From contig JAQUQX010000011.1 in the NCBI GenBank assembly GCA_028715885.1, positions 1-48,672 on the forward strand: a DNA stretch of 48,672 nucleotides. Reading direction: 5' to 3'. The notes beneath the pieces were generated by a model. It worked only from the letters and a program-made list of their open reading frames with translations, did no database searches and had not been told where the DNA came from. The position numbers and the translations under genes were made by a program. Shown here piece after piece: positions 23,359 to 35,320 of the stretch. The stretch is from Candidatus Methanoperedens sp. GTDB taxonomy: Archaea > Halobacteriota > Methanosarcinia > Methanosarcinales > Methanoperedenaceae. The number at the start of each line of letters is the position of its first letter. Position 1 is the stretch's first letter.

Positions 23359-24774
23359 TCACCTCGAAATCTCAACAGGTGTAATTGTTCCCTTCTCAAT
23401 CCCGAACTTCCTGCACGATAGCAGTACATTATCCGGCACTGGCGCAACCTTGAACCTCTTTTCTATTGCGCTGCCGTTTGACTTTATCATGAGCATTCCA
23501 CCCTTCAGGAGCTTGAGCGCCCTGACCGTGTTAAGGCTCAGTTCAACAAAATCGTTATCATCGGATAAGTTAGACCACATGAATGGGTTGAACACACTCA
23601 CAAGCGCGGTCTTTGCCTCAGGTTGTTTTGGCGCCGCCTGTATGGCGCCGTATGCGGGTCTTTCATATTTCGGAATCGTGAACTCGTCGATTGCAGCAAC
23701 CCCAAGCGCCTTTTTCACCGATTCGTGCAGTGAATTGAAATCGAATTTGGTGCCTGCAACGATGCCGAGTGCATCAAGACCATTCGTTCCCGCGCCGCCC
23801 AGCGCCTGCGCCCGCCCTTCATTGTTAATGAGCGTGCCCTTTTTTTTATACAGGGGCTCGTGGGCAATTACGATGTTTGCTTTTGTATCAGGCGCCTGCC
23901 CTGTCTGGACTATGAGGTTCGTGAGTTTTCCAAGAGCCTCGGATGGTATTAGTTCAAGCGGATTTGATTCGAGACAGAACAATGTCTTAATCGTCCCTTT
24001 ATTAATATCATCAACAAGCTGCGCCAGCGACTTTTGTTTTGCATCCTTTGACATGATATACGCGCCAGTTGAATTCGCAAACGGTTTGAGGAACGTCACT
24101 TTAGCGCCTGCGTTCTTTGCAAGGGAAAGCACGCTCTTTACCTGCTCCACATCTGAAAACGGATGGAAATCAGCTATGATGAGTGAATCTTTTGTAAACT
24201 GCAGCTTTGAGACATCCTCAGGTCTGATATTTTCAGTCGCCAGCGCTAAATCTTTCCACCAGACTGCTGTAATTTTCGCTCCTTTATTTTTAGCAGAAAT
24301 CAGGCGCCGAACTATCAGTGGATACTGCTCGTATGGGTCGATGAAAAGCACGATATGCTTTGCATTTTCTATTTCACTGTAGGGTATCCCTACGCTCAAC
24401 GTCTGATACGTATCCTTCGGAAGCCCCTCAAAATTTACTCCTGTGCATAAATACGATTCAGATGCTTTCCGCAATGCCAGAAGCTCTTCACAGGTTGTAT
24501 TGCCAAATGATAGGAATGCTGTGGAACCTTTTCCAGCTGAAATCCTCTTTGCAGCTTCTTTAGCAGCATCTTCAATTGATGTTTCCTTGCCATCTACCAT
24601 CGACTTTATCGGCTTGTAGAAACGCGGAAGGCTCATCCCGAACCTGCACAGCTTTCCAGCATTGGCAGGTGATGATTTCCTGAAATCAACATCAAGCGCT
24701 CTGTTCTCGCGAATGTATAATCCACAGCCGAAATTGCAGCCGGGGCAAATCGTTGAATAAATAGTATCACTCAT
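23359..24774 (-). CDS. molybdopterin-oxidoreductase-like protein (FdhA/NuoG-like), lacks C-terminal cofactor domain
   Basis: A 471-residue protein. The N-terminus carries the [4Fe-4S] motif of MopB enzymes (C10-x2-C13-x3-C17 and C43 in KLCRFG). The body resembles FdhA, NuoG and FwdB domains: LIADFHPFSD, FCLESNPLELIP, and KGTLINNEGRAQALGG, the NuoG/FdhA-type E-G-R-x-Q motif. The usual catalytic Cys or selenocysteine stretch after the second domain is not found. Only a short C-terminal remnant (GGMLMIKSNGSAIEKRF) stands for the dinucleotide-binding domain, and known FdhA enzymes are about 200 residues longer. It may be an electron-transfer or scaffold subunit, as NuoG is. It overlaps its upstream FdhB-like neighbour by eight bases. 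Confidence 0.8.
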   Translation of the reverse strand: MSDTIYSTICPGCNFGCGLYIRENRALDVDFRKSSPANAGKLCRFGMSLPRFYKPIKSMVDGKETSIEDAAKEAAKRISAGKGSTAFLSFGNTTCEELLALRKASESYLCTGVNFEGLPKDTYQTLSVGIPYSEIENAKHIVLFIDPYEQYPLIVRRLISAKNKGAKITAVWWKDLALATENIRPEDVSKLQFTKDSLIIADFHPFSDVEQVKSVLSLAKNAGAKVTFLKPFANSTGAYIMSKDAKQKSLAQLVDDINKGTIKTLFCLESNPLELIPSEALGKLTNLIVQTGQAPDTKANIVIAHEPLYKKKGTLINNEGRAQALGGAGTNGLDALGIVAGTKFDFNSLHESVKKALGVAAIDEFTIPKYERPAYGAIQAAPKQPEAKTALVSVFNPFMWSNLSDDNDFVELSLNTVRALKLLKGGMLMIKSNGSAIEKRFKVAPVPDNVLLSCRKFGIEKGTITPVEISR

Positions 24775-25921
24775 TTAACTTCACCTCGAAATAAGGCGGC
24801 TTTCGCATATCCATACCAGGTTCATACTTCAACTGCTCCTGAACAGGGTTCGCAAACCTTCTATACAATCTGGTAAGAGGAATATCTACAGGGCACACAT
24901 CACTGCACTGCCCGCACCCGATACATGCATCGGCAAGATGTAAGAAGCGAACGAGATGATACATGGACATCTTGTAAGCATCGCCGCGGAAATGATATTC
25001 AGTACACTTTGAAACATCGCCGCATGAGCAGGTGGGACATACCGCCTTGCACGCTCCGCAGTCGATGCAGTGTTCAAGCTCTTTCCTGAAATATTCAAGC
25101 CTTCCATTATCGATTGGAACGAATACCTTACCTTTCCATTTCTTGCCAAGGTCTTCCATGACGCCTTTTATTTTGGCGCGCATTGCGATTCCTTTCTCAT
25201 CAGGTTTTTGCACCTGCACGTATCCTGCATCGATTGCATTCTGGAGGAGTTTTGCGCCCTTTTCTGAATTTATCTCAACAAATGTTGCTTTTCCCACAAG
25301 GTCTCCAGTGACGCCCCAGTTGCCGCAGGCGATATCGGAATTATTTGGCACTTTTATCGTGCAATAGCGACAGCTTTCGCGCCTTCCGTATCCTTTCTCT
25401 TCAAGCTCATCAATGGTTATGGCATGCTCTTTCCCGTCCTTTGTCTCGAATATGAGCTTCCCCTTCTCGATTTCTTCGCCATGCACATCTTCAGGCTTGA
25501 GCTTGTACATTACTTCAAGCATCTCTCGCGTGACAACAGGATGCATCGACCCGCCGCAGTTCAATCCCACGATGAAAGTATTATCAAGATTTATTGCATT
25601 GCGTTTTCCCTGCTCGATAATCCCACGCACATCACATCCTTTCGCAGGAAGCGCGACTTTCAGGTTCCTGTTAGCGATAAGCTTTGCAAAGTTGCTCGGG
25701 ACTGAGTGTAATGAACCCGCCGAGTTCAATACTTCATTAACGTCCGAAGTTATTATCGGCACTGCTTCAAATTCGTTAATTTTCTTAAGCACTACAACAG
25801 CATCAACCAGCTTCTTTTCAAGCGCCGCAGCCAGCATGGAAGTCACAAGACCGCCAGAGCCTCCGCGCTTTCTCACGTCCTCTTTTGTTGACCATCCCAC
25901 ATACATCTCGCTTTTTTGCAT
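24767..25921 (-). CDS. FrhB/FdhB-family F420-type oxidoreductase with two-cluster ferredoxin tail
   Basis: A 384-residue protein. Residues about 8-265 are the FrhB/FdhB domain that binds FAD and oxidises or reduces F420 in hydrogenase, formate dehydrogenase and Fpo complexes: KRGGSGGLVTSMLAAAL at residues 18-34, ALPAKGCDVRG, GLNCGG, and C184-x2-C187 with C199 in SCRYCTIKVPNNSDIACGNWG (split across two). Residues 283-345 add two ferredoxin motifs, C285-x2-C288-x2-C291-x3-C295 and C333-x2-C336-x2-C339-x3-C343, arranged as in HdrC. The fusion suggests direct wiring of F420 chemistry to Hdr. The start shares one base with the upstream mvhD stop. Confidence 0.9.
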   Translation of the reverse strand: MQKSEMYVGWSTKEDVRKRGGSGGLVTSMLAAALEKKLVDAVVVLKKINEFEAVPIITSDVNEVLNSAGSLHSVPSNFAKLIANRNLKVALPAKGCDVRGIIEQGKRNAINLDNTFIVGLNCGGSMHPVVTREMLEVMYKLKPEDVHGEEIEKGKLIFETKDGKEHAITIDELEEKGYGRRESCRYCTIKVPNNSDIACGNWGVTGDLVGKATFVEINSEKGAKLLQNAIDAGYVQVQKPDEKGIAMRAKIKGVMEDLGKKWKGKVFVPIDNGRLEYFRKELEHCIDCGACKAVCPTCSCGDVSKCTEYHFRGDAYKMSMYHLVRFLHLADACIGCGQCSDVCPVDIPLTRLYRRFANPVQEQLKYEPGMDMRKPPYFEVKLNE

Positions 25922-26382
25922 TAAGCCACCCCCTCAGGTTTTAATGGACTTGGACCGAGTTTCTTTATCTGCGCCGTGACGTCGCGGATGAAATTTGCGA
26001 ACTTCTCGCCTTCGCTGGCGGAAATCCAGTTAAGCTGAAGTCTCTCTTTTTCAATACCAAGTTCTCGCGCCACGTTCTCAAGGTACTTGTATTTTATTTT
26101 TGTCTTATCATTGCCATTCACATAATGGCAGTCGCCGATGTGGCAGCCTGTGACAAGAACTGCATCAGCGCCTTCAAGGAAAGCATTGAACACATGCAGC
26201 GGGTCTATCCTGCCTGAACACATCACACGTATAATTCGCGTTGATGCCGGCTGCTGGAATCGTCCCATACCAGCGCTGTCAGCGCCTCCGTATGAGCACC
26301 AATTGCAGCAGAATGCAACAATTTTAGGTTCCCAGCCGCCAGTCTTTGCAGCCGCCGGGGCTGCTGCCGCTTCTGCGCTCAT
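25921..26382 (-). CDS. mvhD: MvhD/FlpD-family [2Fe-2S] electron-transfer protein (copy 2)
   Basis: A 153-residue MvhD-type subunit that passes electrons between a hydrogenase or dehydrogenase and Hdr[23 protein letters not shown] supplies two of the cluster cysteine groups. [23 protein letters not shown] and [16 protein letters not shown] follow. It is close to, but clearly diverged from, the second copy at 28403-28846. Each copy sits directly downstream of an HdrA gene, so each HdrA probably has its own MvhD. It overlaps HdrA by four bases (ATGA). Confidence 0.93.
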
Positions 26383-28406
26383 GCCGCCACCTCCTGGAAC
26401 TTGAACACATTCTTTATCTGTGCAAGTAACTGGTTGTTCTTGAAGTGGCTTTGCTCAAGCGCGCCTGTCGGGCAGGCTGTGACACATGTGCCGCATCCCT
26501 TGCATAGCGCCTTCACCACATTCGCTTTTTTAATCCCCGTATTTAAATACGGGGTTTCATCCATCTTGATAGCCTGGAACGGACACATGGGTATGCACAC
26601 CTGGCATCCCACGCAGACCTCAGGATTCACCACTGCGGTTATGCCTTCTGTTATGGCTTTCTTGTTCTTTAGCAGAATAGTCGCCCTGCCTGCGCATGCG
26701 CTGCCCTGGGAAACAGCATAAGGAATATCTTTCGGACCTGACGCCACGCCTGCAAGGAACACTCCGTCGATAGTGGTATCAACAGGTTTTAATTTAGGAT
26801 GGGCTTCCATCAGCAGCCCATCTGCTGCTTTTGATAATTTCAATAATTGCTGTATCTGGTTTATTCCTTCATGCGGCACTATGCCTGTGGCAAGCACAAT
26901 AAGGTCAAATTCAAGATTCCGGATCTCATTTGCAAGCGTATCCTCAACTCTGACCTTGATATTTTTAGTAACGGGGTCTTCTTTAACTTCAACAGGTCTT
27001 CCGCGCAGGAATTTAACACCGAGCGCGCGCGATCTGTTGTATGATTCCTCATATCCCCTGAAGGGTGTCCTGATGTCAATATACATTATCGTGTGATCCG
27101 TTTCGGGGCGTTTCTCCTTGAGAAGCTGTGCATTCTTTATTGTGACCATGCAGCATACGCCAGAGCAGTAGATGTTGGTGGCTTTATCTCGCGACCCGAC
27201 ACAATTTACAAAACCCACGCGTATGGGTTCTTTACAGTCCGATGGACGCACAACGTGGCCGCCAGTTGGACCAGCAGCGTTCAGCAATCGTTCAAATTCC
27301 ATTGCTGTAATGACATTATCGTACAATCCGTAACCAAAATCGTGCCTGGGCTCAGGATCGTATGTTTTGAAACCCACTGCTCCTACAATGACGCCAACAT
27401 TAATATCTGTATAAGAAGTCTGCATATCATAATTTATGGCGCCGCTCTGGCATGCCTTGGCACACGCCTTACAACTGATGCAGTTCTCTTTATCAAGAAC
27501 TGCACGAAGCGGCACAGCCTGGGGGAACGGGACATAAATTGCCTTGCGCGTGCCGAAGCCTTCATTGAAATCATACGGCACTTCAACAGGACATACTTCG
27601 CTGCATTTGGCACAGCCTGTGCATTTGGCAACGTCAAGGTATCTGGGTTTATGCTCCACCTTCACGTTAAAGTTGCCCACATACCCTTCCACAGCTTTTA
27701 CTTCCGAATAACTCATTATCTTGATATTCTTGTTCCTTGCCACTTCCACCATCTTGGGACCCAGGATGCATATCGAGCAGTCGTTAGTTGGGAACACCTT
27801 ATCAAATCTCGCCATCCTGCCGCCGATAGAAGGTTCCTTCTCAACGAGATAAACCTGGAAACCCATATCCGCAAGATCAAGCGCTGATTGCATGCCGGCG
27901 ACGCCTGCACCGATGACAAGGGCTTTATCAGTAACAGGCACTTCACTTGCCTGAAGAGGCTCAAGCAGCTTTGATCGCTCAACGCCCATTCTTATAAGGT
28001 CTTTGGCTTTCTCCGTGGCTTTTTCCTTCTCCCACATGTGAATCCATGAGCAGTGGTCTCTGATATTTACGAATTCAAGGAAGTACTGGTTAAGACCCAT
28101 CTGCTCGATGCATGCGCGAAATGTGGGTTCGTGCGTCTTTGGCGAACACGCAGCAACAACAACGCGGTTCAGGTTGTGCTCTTTTATCTTCTGCTGGATG
28201 TCAGCCTGTCCCGAGTCAGAACATGTGAACTTGTTCACTGAGGTGACCTTGACGCCGGGCAGCGTTCCGATATAATCTGCCACTGCCTTTGTATTAACGA
28301 CGCCTCCTATATTCACGCCGCATTCGCATACGAACACACCTACCCGTTTTTCTTCATTATCTTTTGCAACGGCACCTTTATTTTCAGTACCTTTAATATC
28401 GCTCAT
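26379..28406 (-). CDS. hdrA: heterodisulfide reductase subunit A (HdrA)
   Basis: A 675-residue flavoprotein of normal HdrA length. The N-terminal domain (residues 20-150, [19 protein letters not shown]) is followed by an FAD-binding thioredoxin-reductase fold with [18 protein letters not shown] near 165. A ferredoxin is inserted at C262-x2-C265-x2-C268-x3-C272 and C309-x2-C312-x2-C315-x3-C319. Another pair lies at the C-terminus (C598 to C608 and C635 to C645). In methanogens HdrA is the bifurcating flavin subunit of HdrABC. Here it follows MvhD copy 1 and precedes MvhD copy 2, both with ATGA overlaps. Confidence 0.96.
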
Positions 28407-28846
28407 TTCTTCACTTCCTTGACTGGATTTTCACCCAATTTCTTTATCTCTTCCGTAAAATCCCGAATAACTTCTGAGAATCGTAATCCTTCACTGGCAG
28501 AAATCCACTCAAGCCGCAGCCTCTTATCAAGCCCCAGCTTTGCCAGCGCTTTTTTAGTGTTATTTATCCTGACTTCTGCGTTCTTATTTCCATCAATATA
28601 ATGGCAGTCGCCGATATGGCATCCTGCAATAAGAACGCCGTCGGCGCCGTCCTTGAGCGCTTTCAGGATGAATGAAGGCTCTACCCTGCTTGAACACATG
28701 ACACGCAGGACTTTGACTGTTGGAGGATACTGGAATCTGCTCACTCCTGCAAGGTCGGCTCCTGCATATGAACACCAGTTGCAGCAAAAAGCAAGTATAT
28801 TTGGCTCCCATCCGTTCTCTTTCGATGCAGGAGTTTCGGCACTCAT
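28403..28846 (-). CDS. mvhD: MvhD/FlpD-family [2Fe-2S] electron-transfer protein (copy 1)
   Basis: A 147-residue MvhD homologue with [30 protein letters not shown] and [15 protein letters not shown] motifs and an ISASEGLRFSEVIRDF tail. The cysteine set matches the second copy in the operon. It lies between the fused HdrA and the single HdrA with four-base overlaps at both ends. It is likely the electron bridge between one HdrA flavin and a dehydrogenase subunit. No hydrogenase large or small subunit is encoded here, so the partner is probably the FdhB-like or MopB-like protein. Confidence 0.93.
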   Translation of the reverse strand: MSAETPASKENGWEPNILAFCCNWCSYAGADLAGVSRFQYPPTVKVLRVMCSSRVEPSFILKALKDGADGVLIAGCHIGDCHYIDGNKNAEVRINNTKKALAKLGLDKRLRLEWISASEGLRFSEVIRDFTEEIKKLGENPVKEVKK

Positions 28847-31800
28847 ACAATCACCTCCACAACGCCCTTCTCAATTGAAATGCTCTTTACTCCCCTGTCG
28901 AAGGCATCTATCGCTTCGCCTATCTCTTTTGATGAGAAATGCTGCGCCGTAATAGCGCCTGCAGGACAGGCGGCTGCGCATGAACCGCATCCTTTGCAGG
29001 CGGCAGGATTAATTTTTGATTTCTTTGTGGTGTAAGTGACCTCTTCGACTTTGACGGTCGCATCATACAATGAAGGCGCATTATAGGGACAAACCGTAAC
29101 ACAGGTGCCGCAGCCAATGCATTTTGTTTCATTGACAACGGATATCGCGCCTTCTGTCTCTATGAACTTACGGGACAAAATCGTACACGCCCTTGATGCA
29201 GCGGCGCTTGCCTGCGAAATGGCTTCATCTATGAGCTTTGGCGCCTGGGCGCTTCCGCACAGGAATACGCCGTCAGTGGCAAAATCAACCGGACGCAGCT
29301 TGGGATGTGCCTCGAGGAAGAATTTGTTTTTGTCAAGAGGTATCTTGAACAACTGGTTTATCTCCTCGTTTTCACCCGCAACCAGCGGCGTGCTCAGCAC
29401 TACAAGGTCAGAGGCTATCTCGATATCCTCGTTAAGCATGGAATCATGCACAATAACCGAGCTGCCCTGCACTTTTGGCGGCTTGTCTGCATCGTATTTA
29501 ATGAATAGAACGCCAAGGTCTCTTGCAGTTTCATACAGCTTCTCGATAACGCCGTATGTTCTCATATCGCGATATAATACATACACGCTTGCGCTGCTGT
29601 TTGCTTTCTTGATTCGTATCGCGTTCTTGACAGCGTCAACACAGCATGTTCTCCCGCAGTATTCCCGTTCTTTGCTGCGCGCGCCCACGCACTGGATCAT
29701 GGTTATAGTTTTTGCGCCAACACCTGCTCCGAGCATTTTCTCAAACTGCGCCTGGGTAACAATGTGTTTATCGCTGCCGTAATTGAATAATCCTGATGGT
29801 TCAAGGTTCCTGGCTCCTGTTGCTACGACCGCTGCGCCAAAATCAACAGGCATTTCCTTTCCTTTTGCCAGTATCACTCCTTTGAAATTGCCAAGATACC
29901 CCTCGACCTTCATGAGTTTTGCTTCGTTTATGATCTTTATATTCTTATTCTCATTCACTTTGCGGATAAGGTCTTTCAGCACATCAGCAGGCTTCTTTCC
30001 ATCATATAATTCCGTCATCTCCCGCAGCATCCCGCCAAGCTCTTTTTCCTTTTCAACAAGGGTCACTGGATAACCGTTGTTAGCAATATCAAGCGCTGCT
30101 GTCATGCCTGCTACGCCTGCGCCAAGCACAAGCGCCTTATTGATAAGAGACACTTTTTGCTTGTAAAGCGGCTGGAAAAGAGCGGACTTTGCTACAGCCA
30201 TCTGCACGATAGCTTTTGCTTTTTCAGTAGCTTTATCTTTTTCTTTCATGTGAACCCAGGAACAGTGTTCACGGATATTCGCCAGTTCAAAAAGATACGG
30301 ATTTAATCCTGCTTCGCGGCAGGTATTCTGGAATAACGGCTCGTGCGTGCGCGGCGTGCACGACGCCACTACCACACGGTTAAGGTTATTTTTTGCTATC
30401 GCATCTTTTATTGTGACCTGTGAATCTGATGAACAGGCATACAACATTTCCTGTGCATGCGCAACACCAGGAAGCGTTTTCGCATATTCAACAACATTCG
30501 GGACATTGACCACTGATCCTATATTTATCCCGCAGTGGCATACGAATACGCCGATGCGCGGCTCTGGCGAGAGCGGCTTTTCATCCGGGAATTTTCGCTC
30601 TTTTATTAGAGTTCCGCGCTCACCTGATAGAAGGGCGGCAGCTTTTGAGGCGGCTGCGCTTGCCTGCGCCACGGTGTCCGGTATATCCTTTGGCCCCTGT
30701 GCAACGCCGCAGACATAGATGCCTGCAACACTTGTTTCGACAGGATTTTCAATCGTTGTTGCGATATTTCCGAACTCATCAAGTGCGATGCCCGACGACT
30801 GGGCAAGAGCGCGTGTCGAATCAGCAGGGTCAAGTCCTATGGAAAGAACGACCATATCATAATTCTTAGTCATAAGGTCGCCTGTGTTGAAATCTTCGAA
30901 TTTAAGTGATAGTGAATTATCAGGATTGACGATAACTTCAGGGGGGCGGGAATTGATATACCTGATACCGTATTCTCTCTGCGCGCGGTTGTAGAATTCC
31001 TCAAAATTCTTTCCATAAGCCCTGACATCTATCTGGAAAATCGTAATATCAAGCTCGGAGTCATGTTCTTTTGCGATTATGGATTCTTTGGTCGCATACA
31101 TGCAGCACACTGAAGAGCAGTGCTTCCTGTTGATGCGCGGATTCCGGGAGCCTACGCACTGGATAAATGCAATATTCTTCGGGACCTTTCCATCCGACTG
31201 CTTTGTCACATGTCCCTGGGTAGGGCCGCTTGCGCTCAGGAGACGTTCGAACTGGAGCGATGTAATAACATCGGGATGGTCGAACCTGTACTGTTTCAGC
31301 ACTGATGGGTCAAATGGCTTAAAACCTGTTGCAAGCACAACTGAACCCACATTCAGCTCGATCTCTTTGTCTTTCTGTTCATAATCCACGGCTTTTGGCC
31401 CGCATACTTTCTTGCACACGCCGCATTTGCCTTTTGTGAGATACATGCAGTGAGCAGCATCAATGGTAGCCACACGCGGTATCGCCTGTGCAAAAGGAAT
31501 GTAGATGGATTTACGCTTGCTCATGCCTGCGTTGTACTCGTCCGGCACTTTTGAGGGACATTTCTCGGTGCATGTGCCGCAGCCAGTGCATTTTGTCTCA
31601 TCAACGTAGCGCGCTTTCTTTACAATTTTAACTTTAAAATCGCCTGCTTTCCCTGAGATGGATTTAACATCGCTATACCCAAGCAATTCAATATTGGGGT
31701 GCCTTGCAGTTTCCACAAGTTTTGGCGAGAGGATGCACATGGCGCAGTCATTTGTGGGGAAGGTCTTGTCAAGCTGGGACATTACGCCGCCGATGCTGGG

Positions 31801-31902
31801 TCGTGATTCTATGAGATACGTTTTGTATCCGCTGTCTGCAAGGTCAAGAGCCGCCTGGATACCTGCGATACCGCCGCCTACTACCGCTACCGAGCCTTTC
31901 AT
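28843..31902 (-). CDS. hdrA: fused double HdrA (two flavin modules, 1019 residues)
   Basis: Two HdrA cores in one chain. Module 1 spans residues 1-430: FAD loop VVGGGIAGIQAALDLAD at 7-23, inserted ferredoxin C105/C108/C111/C115 and a second, irregular motif C160/C163/C167. It has no N-terminal HdrA domain. Residues 449-580 are a complete HdrA N-terminal domain (VFVCHCGINIGS, TPRTHEP). Module 2 follows (FAD loop LGAGVAGMTAALDIANNG at 593-610) without an inserted ferredoxin, then C-terminal ferredoxins at C928 to C938 and C969 to C979. Normal HdrA is about 650-680 residues. The chain could hold two FADs and many clusters. Overlaps of four bases join it to hdrB and mvhD. Confidence 0.93.
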   Translation of the reverse strand: MKGSVAVVGGGIAGIQAALDLADSGYKTYLIESRPSIGGVMSQLDKTFPTNDCAMCILSPKLVETARHPNIELLGYSDVKSISGKAGDFKVKIVKKARYVDETKCTGCGTCTEKCPSKVPDEYNAGMSKRKSIYIPFAQAIPRVATIDAAHCMYLTKGKCGVCKKVCGPKAVDYEQKDKEIELNVGSVVLATGFKPFDPSVLKQYRFDHPDVITSLQFERLLSASGPTQGHVTKQSDGKVPKNIAFIQCVGSRNPRINRKHCSSVCCMYATKESIIAKEHDSELDITIFQIDVRAYGKNFEEFYNRAQREYGIRYINSRPPEVIVNPDNSLSLKFEDFNTGDLMTKNYDMVVLSIGLDPADSTRALAQSSGIALDEFGNIATTIENPVETSVAGIYVCGVAQGPKDIPDTVAQASAAASKAAALLSGERGTLIKERKFPDEKPLSPEPRIGVFVCHCGINIGSVVNVPNVVEYAKTLPGVAHAQEMLYACSSDSQVTIKDAIAKNNLNRVVVASCTPRTHEPLFQNTCREAGLNPYLFELANIREHCSWVHMKEKDKATEKAKAIVQMAVAKSALFQPLYKQKVSLINKALVLGAGVAGMTAALDIANNGYPVTLVEKEKELGGMLREMTELYDGKKPADVLKDLIRKVNENKNIKIINEAKLMKVEGYLGNFKGVILAKGKEMPVDFGAAVVATGARNLEPSGLFNYGSDKHIVTQAQFEKMLGAGVGAKTITMIQCVGARSKEREYCGRTCCVDAVKNAIRIKKANSSASVYVLYRDMRTYGVIEKLYETARDLGVLFIKYDADKPPKVQGSSVIVHDSMLNEDIEIASDLVVLSTPLVAGENEEINQLFKIPLDKNKFFLEAHPKLRPVDFATDGVFLCGSAQAPKLIDEAISQASAAASRACTILSRKFIETEGAISVVNETKCIGCGTCVTVCPYNAPSLYDATVKVEEVTYTTKKSKINPAACKGCGSCAAACPAGAITAQHFSSKEIGEAIDAFDRGVKSISIEKGVVEVIV

Positions 31903-32828
31903 TCTGATGCCTCCGCTTCTGCTTTGGCTGCAGGTTTTGCCGCGGCTTTTGCCTCTGCCTTTGCAGTTCCTTTTCCTATGGATTCGATAAGCTTAGTAGT
32001 TGATACCATGTTCTTATCAAGTTCAAGGTCTTTCTCGCTAAGACCCATTGCAAGACCGATAAGCTGGGTAAAATACAGCACAGGCATCTCGATTACCGTA
32101 TTATGCGCCTTCTCTATCATTTTCTGCTGACCGTCCAGCAGCATATGGCACATGGGGCAGGCAACTACAACGCAATTCGCGCCAGCTGCTTTTGCCTCAT
32201 CGAATAATTTTTTTGTAAGAATGAATGCGTAATCCTGTTTGCTCATAAGGAGATTGCCCCCGCAGCATTTGGTTTTCTGCGTAAAAGGCAAGCATTCGGC
32301 ACCTGTCGCTTTTATCAGGTTATCAAGAGACATGGGATTTTCAGGATTGTCGAATTTTGAAACCTCGGAAGGGCGAACCAGCAGGCAGCCGTAATAAGCA
32401 ACAGCTTTTATCCCATTCAATGGTTTCACAAATTTCTTCGATATCGCATCCATCCCCATATCATTGACAATAACATCAAGCAGGTGCTTTAATTTGATAC
32501 CTTTGTATTCTTCACCAAGAGCCTTTTCGATTTTTTTCTTGAATAACGGATCATTTCTCATGGCTGTATCCGCTCTTGAAAGATTATGCGAGCATATACT
32601 GCACGGGATAACAAGATCAAGCCCTGTTTTCTGCGCTTTGAAGTTGTTGCGCGCCGACAATCCCATTGAAAGTTCCCTGTCAAATATAGCTTCAAGCGCA
32701 CCGCAACAGTTCCAGTCCTCTATCTCTACAAGCTCTATCCCTGCTGCTTTACATACTGCTTTTGTGGATGCATCGTATTCTCGCGCCGTGCCATGCAGCG
32801 TGCATCCCGGATAATAAGCAAGCTTCAT
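31899..32828 (-). CDS. hdrB: heterodisulfide reductase subunit B (HdrB)
   Basis: A 309-residue HdrB with both CCG domains intact: YYPGCTLHG, WNCCGALE and PCSICSHN in the first half, then YYGCLLVRP, KCCGGNLLMS and CPMCHMLLDGQ in the second. In HdrABC these domains ligate two non-cubane [4Fe-4S] clusters that cleave the CoM-S-S-CoB disulfide. The last 25 residues are a KAEAKAAAKPAAKA-type tail like that of the small terminal operon protein, not found in classical HdrB. The gene overlaps hdrC and the fused hdrA by four bases each. Confidence 0.95.
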   Translation of the reverse strand: MKLAYYPGCTLHGTAREYDASTKAVCKAAGIELVEIEDWNCCGALEAIFDRELSMGLSARNNFKAQKTGLDLVIPCSICSHNLSRADTAMRNDPLFKKKIEKALGEEYKGIKLKHLLDVIVNDMGMDAISKKFVKPLNGIKAVAYYGCLLVRPSEVSKFDNPENPMSLDNLIKATGAECLPFTQKTKCCGGNLLMSKQDYAFILTKKLFDEAKAAGANCVVVACPMCHMLLDGQQKMIEKAHNTVIEMPVLYFTQLIGLAMGLSEKDLELDKNMVSTTKLIESIGKGTAKAEAKAAAKPAAKAEAEASE

Positions 32829-33394
32829 TTCTTCTCCACTTCCTCAAAAATGCGTTTTATTTCTTTTGTGCCTTTTATTTTATGAGGGAGAATGCTGAGT
32901 TTTCCTTTCTTGAACAATTCAAACCCCATGGGAGCATATCCCAGTGCGCCGCCAATGCCTTTTGTTTTTAACATGAACGTTCCGGAAACACCAGCTTCAT
33001 ACCATTTGCCATTGCTTTTTACTGAATCAATGAAAAGATTATCAAATACAGGTTTGGAATTGCTGATCTTGATCTTCCCTGCTTTTGCCTCGCGCTGCGC
33101 TATCGCACGTATCGCTCCTATGACTTCTGTAATTTTAACATCCTGCGGACAGCGCTCATAACAGATATAGCATGAAGCGCAGAGCCACAGTGAATCGTCT
33201 GAGAGAACTTCTTTTCGCATGCCAAGGAGGGCTTTCCTGAGGATTGTTCTTGGATTATAGGACTTGTCAATTTCCGTGACCGGGCAGCCGACGGTGCATC
33301 CGGTGCAGTTGAAGCATTTCTTTATGTTCTCACCGCCGGGTTCTTTTGCAATCTCATATTTAAAATTCGGGTCAAGTTCGCTTGATTTTATCAT
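32825..33394 (-). CDS. hdrC: heterodisulfide reductase subunit C (HdrC)
   Basis: A 189-residue two-cluster ferredoxin subunit. Motifs are C27-x2-C30-x2-C33-x3-C37 (KCFNCTGCTVGCPV) and C72-x2-C75-x2-C78-x3-C82 (WLCASCYICYERCPQDV). It relays electrons from HdrA to HdrB. The IGAIRAIAQREAK and SVKSNGKWYEAGV segments are usual for the family. It sits between the HdrD-like gene and hdrB with four-base overlaps. Confidence 0.95.
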   Translation of the reverse strand: MIKSSELDPNFKYEIAKEPGGENIKKCFNCTGCTVGCPVTEIDKSYNPRTILRKALLGMRKEVLSDDSLWLCASCYICYERCPQDVKITEVIGAIRAIAQREAKAGKIKISNSKPVFDNLFIDSVKSNGKWYEAGVSGTFMLKTKGIGGALGYAPMGFELFKKGKLSILPHKIKGTKEIKRIFEEVEKK

Positions 33395-34432
33395 TTTCCC
33401 GCCTCCAGTTGTCTTGCGAGGAATACGCTGAGGTCAACCACATCGAAATTATATTTCTTTACTGCATCTTTTTCTGTTTTCAGGCAATTAAAATGAGCAA
33501 GGCATTTTGAACATGCGGTGATAAGAGTTTTTGCACCTGTTGCTTCTGCTTCATCCATCCGTGCGATGCGAAGCGCTTTTGTCTGTTCGTTGCAGTTCAT
33601 GAAACTGCTCACCCCGCAGCACAGGGCATTTTCTTTTGAATGTTCCATTTCTTTTACTGTGACACCATTTGATGTTAGCGCTTTTCGCGGCGCGTCATAT
33701 ACACCCATATGCCTTCCGAGCCGACACGGGTCATGGTATGTCACATCAGCTTTTATTTTCAGACCAAGTTTATCCAGAAGCTCACTGGTATGAACTACCT
33801 TGATACCAAGGTCATAATCTTTTGAAAAGGTACGGTAGCATTCTGCGCAGCTTGTTATGAGAGTATCGATGCCGCTTTCTTTTATGTATTTTCTATTATG
33901 GTTCTTGAGTTTTTCAAAAACATCCTTTTTCCCCTGCCAGAGCACGTCATGACCGCAGCATTTCATATTCATGACCTGCGGTTTAATGCCGAGCTTATCA
34001 AGCAGCATAAGCGAGGAAGTTGTTATTTCTCCAAAATCAGTCTTGACATCATGCAAGAATAAGCCAAGCTGGTCAACGCATCCGGGGAAAAAACCATATT
34101 TTGATTCTGATTTTTCAGGTTTGACCCCATCAAGTTTAGAACTCAGTTCATTGAATTCTGTGAAAACACCAAGATGCGCAACGTCAAGCGGCTGTTTACC
34201 CGCACGTTCTTCTTTTATGAAACTTAAGAAGTCCACCTGCTGCGGGCAGCCAACCGGACATAGCCCGCACGTCAGGCATGTCCAGATGTCTTTTGTATCA
34301 AGCCCGTAAACATTGGAATTATAAATAGAGCTGCGCGGGGAGGTTTTTGAAACTCGGCGCATGGGGCAAATAGATGTGCATTTACCGCACTGATAACAGG
34401 CTTGTACGTTACTCGTTTGTACCCACCAGCAT
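33391..34432 (-). CDS. HdrD-like (ferredoxin plus two CCG domains) subunit, 5' end apparently frameshifted
   Basis: The clean reading frame from ATG 34362 gives 323 residues. The same frame continues upstream with CYQCGKCTSICP (34363-34398), a full first ferredoxin motif that would pair with the internal CLTCGLCPVGCP. No ATG, GTG or TTG lies in that frame before a stop near 34458. An ATG at 34432 in another frame reads MLVGTNE then TAA at 34409. A one-base slip near 34409 would join them, so I extend the feature there. The C-terminal half has two CCG domains (FFPGC, KCCGHD, SCAEC; HDPCRLG, LCCGVS, ACSKC), as in HdrD or GlpC. It is the first gene of the operon. Confidence 0.8.
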
Positions 34433-34510
34433 TTTGTTGATTTGTAACGTTTTTTTGATTAGAGGGTATAATTGGTTTTAAACATTTCGATTTTTAACGA
34501 TGCAGAGAAT

Positions 34511-34524
34511 CATTATTAATAATG
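34511..34524. promoter_or_regulatory. 14-base perfect palindrome upstream of the Hdr operon
   Basis: CATTATTAATAATG is its own reverse complement. It lies in the 119-base gap between mcrD and the HdrD-like gene. It could be an operator or an AT-rich promoter element for the operon. A TATA-like TTTAAAA (minus strand, about 34478-34484) lies nearer the gene. Confidence 0.35.
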
Positions 34525-34551: not shown

Positions 34552-35073
34552 TTATTTTTCACGCTCTGTGCCAATTACACAGAGGGTTGTTTCCGCTTTT
34601 GCATGCGGGTCTATTAAGCCAAGCATGCGCTCATCTTCAAGAGCGATTGATTCATCGGTCTTGCTTTTGAACCCGTATTTGGCATAATCAGTCAAAGTGG
34701 GTCTTCTCTTGATAAAGTGCCCGCGCTTGAACTCAAAGGCAAAGGGAAGCGCCCGTTCACACGCCCCCCTCACCCTGTCCACAGAAGCTTCATCCTCAAC
34801 TTCGACAAGTATCTCTCCCACGATTATGTGAAGTTCGAATGCGCAGTCGCCTACATGTATAATCTTCCTGTCCGGGTGGTTTACATCCGCGCCGGTTCCG
34901 GGTCCGCTTGTGACTTTCCTGGGCAGGTTTTTCCCATTAATTAGCATCCTGATTACACCTTCGGTTTGGTCGATTTCGTTCAATATTTTCTCAGCAGTTT
35001 CAGGCTGTAATAACCGTCTGGGGAATATCCTTACCTGAATGGGTTTATCAGTTGTTGCGGCAGTTTTTACCAT
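34552..35073 (-). CDS. mcrD: methyl-coenzyme M reductase operon protein D (McrD), orphan
   Basis: A 173-residue McrD. The ATG at 35073 follows AGGTGA with a five-base spacer; the GTG at 35082 is inside that site. VRIFPRRLLQPETAEKIL, GPGTGADVNHPDRKIIHVGD, GHFIKRRPTLTDYAKYG and GLIDPHAKAE are diagnostic. McrD is associated with methyl-CoM reductase maturation and is classically encoded in mcrBDCGA. No other mcr gene is in the window, so it is unlinked here and instead precedes the Hdr operon on the same strand. The downstream gap of about 119 bases may contain a separate promoter. Confidence 0.95.
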   Translation of the reverse strand: MVKTAATTDKPIQVRIFPRRLLQPETAEKILNEIDQTEGVIRMLINGKNLPRKVTSGPGTGADVNHPDRKIIHVGDCAFELHIIVGEILVEVEDEASVDRVRGACERALPFAFEFKRGHFIKRRPTLTDYAKYGFKSKTDESIALEDERMLGLIDPHAKAETTLCVIGTEREK

Positions 35074-35304
35074 TTGATTCACCTTATTTTATATTGACGT
35101 TACCTGGCTATGGCTCCCCGGTCGCCTATCGCTATTATCAGGCTGTTTACTTCCTGACCTGTCGGCTCCCTGTTGTTTTCCATTTCGAAAATGTCGATTA
35201 TTGCGCTGTAAGTGCAGTGCAATTTGTCAGCCGTTTTTCTTCTGGCACATCTGGTCATGTTTTACAATTAGTGTAAACGCTGTGTGACCTATTAAGGATT
35301 TTGG

Positions 35305-35320
35305 TTCGTATAGATACGAA
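35305..35320. promoter_or_regulatory. inverted repeat TTCGTAT-AG-ATACGAA between mcrD and carA
   Basis: Perfect 7-base arms with a 2-base spacer lie 72 bases before carA, next to an A/T-rich TATA-like stretch (ATAAAATAATAAAT, about 35320-35333). They are 232 bases upstream of mcrD. The position over the carA promoter suggests a dimeric repressor or activator site. The rest of the 35074-35391 gap holds only promoter-like AT sequence and no gene I can support. Confidence 0.45.

Follow-up and report, generated by a model that had tools for sequence, protein, structure and literature searches.

Oxidation of its nickel inactivates MCR, and Methanoperedens, which respires nitrate, can encounter oxidants. 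According to PMC11301259, the assembly factor McrD associates with MCR in the apo or half-loaded state, and the deletion of mcrD in M. acetivorans had a minor effect only. The complex described for MCR activation contains McrC, Mmp7, Mmp17, Mmp3, A2 and nitrogenase-like clusters, in the synthesis of which NifB is probably involved; the Hdr-Mvh-Fwd complex belonged to an earlier, cruder fraction, A3a (PMC12176620). MsvR is a redox-sensitive repressor of methanogens that was found to bind its own promoter in the reduced state. Its site is TTCGTAN4TACGAA, or TTCGN7-9CGAA in the relaxed form. In M. acetivorans the reduced protein binds TTCGTAN4TACGAA and is released by oxidation; the motif alone is insufficient, and MsvR did not bind at the rpoK site or the tested oxidative-stress intergenic regions (PMC3729527). 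For ANME-2/3 archaea a Type II HdrA cluster has been described that comprises HdrBC, MvhD, FdhB and Molybdop together with an extra HdrA and HdrD (PMC12054007, PMC9012536). McrD is not mentioned in the available main text of PMC9012536, nor in the available sections of PMC12054007 on the Type II HdrA cluster. The accessible parts of PMC9081873 and PMC12138975 treat the operon mcrD, or merely list mcrD, and do not mention a second copy. Our literature search found no paper joining MsvR with anaerobic methanotrophic archaea and none joining McrD, McrC, the activation complex and heterodisulfide reductase.

The window, i.e., the whole stretch of 48,672 nucleotides analysed here, is contig JAQUQX010000011.1 of a Candidatus Methanoperedens sp. 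assembly (GCA_028715885.1, here G000; 2.09 Mb, 78 contigs, 95 % complete). An mcrD gene was located at 34552-35073 on the minus strand, with an ATG start and 173 codons. The deduced protein matched PF02505 with 177.3 bits (cut-off 25) and TIGR03260 with 174.3 bits (cut-off 100), covering nearly the whole model in both cases. On its 5′ side lie a conserved 52-aa ORF without assigned function (35100-35258, minus strand) and a divergent carA-like gene. The original prediction of an mcrD leading into Hdr genes on the same strand was confirmed by family matches for HdrD-like, HdrC, HdrB, HdrA and MvhD/FlpD proteins 3′ of mcrD. In detail, the minus strand encodes an HdrD-like protein with CCG domain (33391-34416 from a likely ACG start, based on PF02754 for the ATG-started part 33391-34362 and an audit of the start), an hdrC-like gene (32825-33394; TIGR03290, below its cut-off), an hdrB-like gene (31899-32828; TIGR03288, below its cut-off), a long double-flavin HdrA of 1019 aa (28843-31902; three HdrA2-model stretches and two FAD domains), an mvhD/flpD-like gene (28403-28846; PF02662), a second hdrA of 675 aa (26379-28406; NF040770, below its cut-off), a second mvhD/flpD-like gene (25921-26382; NF045873 and NF040770, both below cut-off), an frhB/fdhB-like F420 subunit (24767-25921; PF04432, PF04422) and a molybdopterin-oxidoreductase-like subunit (23359-24774; PF04879). 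A double-flavin HdrA accompanied by HdrBC, MvhD, FdhB and Molybdop genes defines the Type II HdrA cluster, and the content of the window cluster is the same; unlike the described cluster, it has the small ORF and mcrD in front. McrC, Mmp7, Mmp17, Mmp3 and A2 were not found among the subset of window genes run against Pfam/NCBIfam.

The arrangement of the locus suggests that the cell makes extra McrD when MCR is damaged. Our preferred reading, to which we give even chances, is that a spare mcrD and the 52-aa protein were recruited to the promoter unit of the Hdr locus under predicted MsvR control. A bolder and less probable reading is a redox-sensing regulon for the rebuilding of MCR, in which MsvR would switch on mcrD, the small protein, NifB, a redox-disulfide protein and the two-flavin Hdr for the reassembly and reactivation of MCR after oxidants.

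In comparison to the McrD proteins of mcr operons (M. acetivorans, PDB 8gf5/8gf6; M. luminyensis, 8w33), the window protein belongs to the same family, is of full length and has the conserved residues; it differs in being a second, extra-operon copy next to Hdr genes with an MsvR-type box upstream. Its nearest named relatives were records of Candidatus Methanoperedens (M. nitroreducens ANME-2d, isolate Mnv1 and strain BLZ2 among them), which points to an ANME-2d archaeon of the Methanoperedens type. Thirty-two positions were at least 95 % conserved among 50 other McrD sequences; 28 of them were invariant in all 20 extra-operon copies, and the other four varied in some copies. No site separated these 20 copies from operon McrD by a fixed difference. 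The median dN/dS was 0.10 for extra-operon versus 0.12 for operon McrD, calculated from 86 of 105 pairs after removal of the pairs with saturated synonymous change, and dN was higher in the extra-operon copies (median 0.153 versus 0.104; 98 of 105 pairs). The window mcrD is a second McrD copy under purifying selection, and probably a functional one. A paralogue that has diverged to a clearly new function was ruled out, because the copies mix in one group and lack a distinguishing site. In the McrD tree, calculated without seven short-flank loci present under other identifiers (L028, L032-L037), Hdr-linked and operon copies fell together into one Methanoperedenaceae group (100/98). The Hdr-linked copies needed three changes on the best tree, and their single clade was neither recovered nor rejected (AU p 0.226); the extra copy may have arisen by several duplications, or by a single one followed by gene conversion. 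No relative of the window McrD was found in a scan of viral contigs.

McrD matches were present in 27 of 31 genus genomes, and 20 of the 31 possessed an McrD outside the mcr operon. It is usually found beside the 52-codon ORF and an HdrD-C-B-A/MvhD cluster; 15 of the 20 genomes have, 3′ of mcrD on the same contig, an HdrD-like gene whose match covers more than 70 % of its length. Near the extra mcrD of G093 the HdrD-like match is partial and contains a stop, and in G095 the contig end truncates it; the G079 contig stops just past the small ORF, and G017 and G077 have the pair of mcrD and small ORF apart from the Hdr cluster. The HdrD-like gene itself occurred in 32 of 34 family genomes, with or without an adjoining mcrD. 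G048 and G087 have two Hdr loci each, one with and one without mcrD. For the locus tree, loci lacking long HdrD-like and HdrA matches of more than 60 % identity were excluded, and G079, cut by the contig end, was labelled mcrD-minus. Three loci, L048 (G022), L161 (G077) and L163 (G068), had HdrC at about 31 % and long HdrA at about 55 % identity 3′ of the HdrD-like gene and no HdrB match, as if Hdr subunits had been swapped. In the order-level family f4 (G003, G008, G013, G018, G023, G028) none of the six genomes gave an McrD match; five of them are less than 90 % complete.

The 52-codon ORF was detected in 27 of the 34 family genomes, on either side of mcrD, with a median dN/dS of 0.12. In G017 and G077 it travels with mcrD, not with the Hdr genes. 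Its structure was modelled as a hairpin of two helices. Assignment to a known family or to a relative in the PDB was dropped, as no family match and no PDB match at E values up to 10 were obtained. MtrI, a small protein of the Methanosarcinales tied to oxygen exposure (PMC12774963), is likewise the product of a short ORF and comes from the order to which Methanoperedens belongs; it has four helices, in contrast to the two-helix hairpin modelled here.

These distributions bear on an alternative explanation, a redundant or dosage copy of mcrD that sits behind a ready promoter, helps slightly or is harmless, and has no tie to redox state or Hdr. The proteins gave no sign of a new McrD function, in 11 of the 31 genus assemblies McrD was absent outside the mcr operon, G085 has kept only a 24-codon mcrD match at its Hdr site, and the copies of G017 and G077 are away from Hdr. 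This explanation is doubtful in view of the strong purifying selection and of the same kind of box being kept in 18 of 20 mcrD units, in either gene order.

The gene had been regarded as an orphan, which is correct for its surroundings: it is flanked by carA, the small ORF and the Hdr genes instead of lying between mcrB and mcrC/mcrG, it is the sole McrD in the assembled G000, and no mcrA family match was found in the assembled 78 contigs. For the genome as a whole the term does not hold. Alignment of the mcr region of G007 (L081) to G000 revealed that contig C30 starts inside the 5′ part of mcrB and contig C47 inside the end of mcrA; C31 and C55 provide a second pair of the mcrB/mcrA edges. 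A G000 without mcr operon was thus ruled out, as C30/C31 end inside mcrB and C47/C55 inside mcrA. The mcrA operon that was to be sought elsewhere in the genome is thereby traced to contig ends, but it is not assembled through. C30 and C31 have exactly 127 identical bases in common and diverge beyond; the same holds for C47 and C55 (L094-L097). As judged from these contig ends, the 127-base shared edges are the mark of a repeat collapsed in the assembly, either two mcr operons or two strains. The order mcrB-mcrD-mcrG was observed in 21 of 21 mapped family mcr loci, a set apart from those of G068, G081, G095, G100 and G102, with mcrA next where the contig extends. Since all 21 mapped operons hold mcrD, the operon mcrD of G000 very probably lies in the assembly gap.

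Directly 5′ of the small ORF, the window contains TTCGTATCTATACGAA (35305-35320, minus strand), an exact match to TTCGTAN4TACGAA, and immediately 3′ of it the BRE/TATA-like CCAAAATCCTTAATA (35290-35304, minus strand). The MsvR promoters of M. thermautotrophicus and M. acetivorans have the same inverted repeat against the TATA region, and there, too, msvR carries its own box. Across the family, TTCGN8CGAA with a TATA-like box heads 36 of 40 mcrD/Hdr loci, comprising 18 of 20 units with mcrD and 18 of the 20 remaining Hdr units. The box precedes whichever gene is first, mcrD or the small ORF; in units lacking both it stands before the HdrD-like gene. The separate mcrD pair and the Hdr cluster of G017 and G077 carry a box each. 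Altogether 37 of the 42 TTCGN8CGAA sites in 823,828 bp of collected loci lay at the heads of these units. Half-sites and TATA were nearly invariant, the outer TTCG and CGAA being required by the search, and the spacer was variable, with 27 distinct 16-mers among 36. Among the four loci without box, the mcrD units of G048 and G087 had none even at three mismatches; the others were the G085 locus with its mcrD stretch and the HdrD-like gene of G079 at the contig start. As controls, no mcrB had a box within 400 bp upstream (0 of 21), and within 250 bp a box was found at 0 of 20 mcrB, 0 of 20 mcrG, 0 of 17 mcrA, 1 of 31 HdrC, 0 of 30 HdrB, 0 of 28 for each of the two HdrA, 0 of 29 for each of the two FlpD and 1 of 4 chorismate-lyase-like genes. 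The new element is the promoter, a predicted MsvR-type site that heads the mcrD and Hdr units and is absent from mcrB. In the whole genome of G000, the strict motif, with one mismatch allowed, occurred at 14 sites versus 9 for the reversed pattern. This is a mild enrichment in a single genome, and the case for an MsvR box therefore rests on the conservation between species.

A gene with HTH and V4R domains in G000 was identified as MsvR equivalog (268.8 bits, cut-off 220), with one of the 14 sites just upstream. The msvR gene was found in 31 of 31 genus genomes, and its own box was located 46-50 bp upstream in all 30 loci covered by this check, G093 being absent. Further boxes preceded a nifB-like gene (TIGR01290, below its cut-off; G000 C5:55137, L218) in 26 of 29 genus loci, a count that leaves out one more-distant relative (L284, 46 % identity), and a hybrid-cluster-associated redox-disulfide gene (G000 C21:25011, L221) in 25 of 27 loci. 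The three nifB loci without box included M. nitroreducens ANME-2d (G074). An AhbC-like radical SAM gene of heme synthesis in G000 has an exact MsvR-type box 19 bp before it (C19:28452, L214). The targets predicted from sequence in Methanoperedens, i.e., mcrD, the Hdr cluster, nifB and the redox-disulfide gene, differ from the known MsvR promoters. We infer one predicted regulon of mcrD, nifB and the Hdr cluster, with MsvR binding and redox induction as predicted properties; the NifB may serve nitrogenase rather than MCR activation. The box could also be bound by another regulator that answers to a different signal, such as metal, sulfide or growth state, with mcrD, Hdr and nifB still forming one regulon. 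The insufficiency of the motif for MsvR binding in M. acetivorans would agree with this, as would the second palindrome at the Hdr promoter and the related sequence 5′ of many boxes; we regard it as unlikely, given that msvR is present in every genus genome and has its own box in every locus examined, as expected of an autoregulator.

The second palindrome, CATTATTAATAATG (34511-34524, no strand assigned), lies between mcrD and the HdrD-like gene and was conserved with at most one mismatch in 27 of 34 loci. It is accompanied by the TATA-like CGAAATGTTTAAAA (34476-34489, minus strand), which aligned across relatives. Because of this conserved palindrome and TATA-like sequence, the Hdr genes probably have their own promoter, separate from the mcrD unit; transcript read-through from mcrD into the Hdr genes is possible. 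In some relatives the palindrome is repeated at intervals of about 20 bp, with two or three copies when up to two mismatches are allowed, and sequences similar to it are located just 5′ of many MsvR-type boxes. Position 34432 had been taken as start of the next gene, which proved untenable, as the ATG there is followed by a TAA after seven codons. In the HdrD-like frame, the sole plausible start is ACG (34416-34414). In nine of 35 loci (the window, L051, L053, L056, L060, L062, L167, L168 and L170), this frame offers no ATG, GTG or TTG start after the upstream stop and ahead of the first cluster cysteines. The ACG occupies the exact position of an ATG in 12 relatives and is immediately preceded by a stop in L051, L056 and L060. 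The HdrD-like gene likely starts at this ACG.

The link proposed earlier between MCR maturation and this Hdr set thus stands in a changed form. The mcrD-Hdr neighbourhood recurs and both parts keep the box even when apart, and therefore the link is supported as predicted co-regulation; the mcrD in the operons of relatives and the probable own promoter of the Hdr genes count against the stronger version. A second mcrD within the operon together with a separate transcript here had been named as evidence against it. Half of this was found: all 21 operons mapped in relatives hold mcrD, and a conserved promoter-like region precedes the Hdr genes. A McrD that physically works with the neighbouring Hdr complex to provide low-potential electrons for MCR activation would fit the conserved neighbourhood and the Hdr-Mvh-Fwd in the A3a fraction, but is very unlikely, since McrD was reported on apo or half-loaded MCR during assembly, the purified activation complex consists of other proteins (McrC, Mmp7, Mmp17, Mmp3 and A2), no fixed residue differences from operon McrD exist, G017 and G077 have the two units at separate sites, and Hdr loci without mcrD are numerous. 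Direct contact of McrD and Hdr is possible.

In the mechanism that we propose for the preferred reading, MsvR seated against the TATA box would repress the mcrD unit under reducing conditions. Under oxidising conditions (O2, NO or nitrite), MsvR would be released, and the small protein and extra McrD would be made. The additional McrD could hold MCR open for the insertion of F430 and the rebuilding of the enzyme, and NifB and the redox-disulfide protein, behind similar boxes, may help to rebuild iron-sulfur clusters for reactivation. The Hdr cluster, in the same predicted regulon, would supply or drain electrons, for which a contact with McrD is unnecessary.

The locus is of interest for the protection and restart of MCR in anaerobic methanotrophs. 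With the spare McrD, NifB and Hdr predicted to be under a common redox switch, a repair programme for MCR can be proposed in testable form, and the window-type mcrD, not the operon mcrD, would be a candidate marker gene for oxidant stress in metatranscriptomes.
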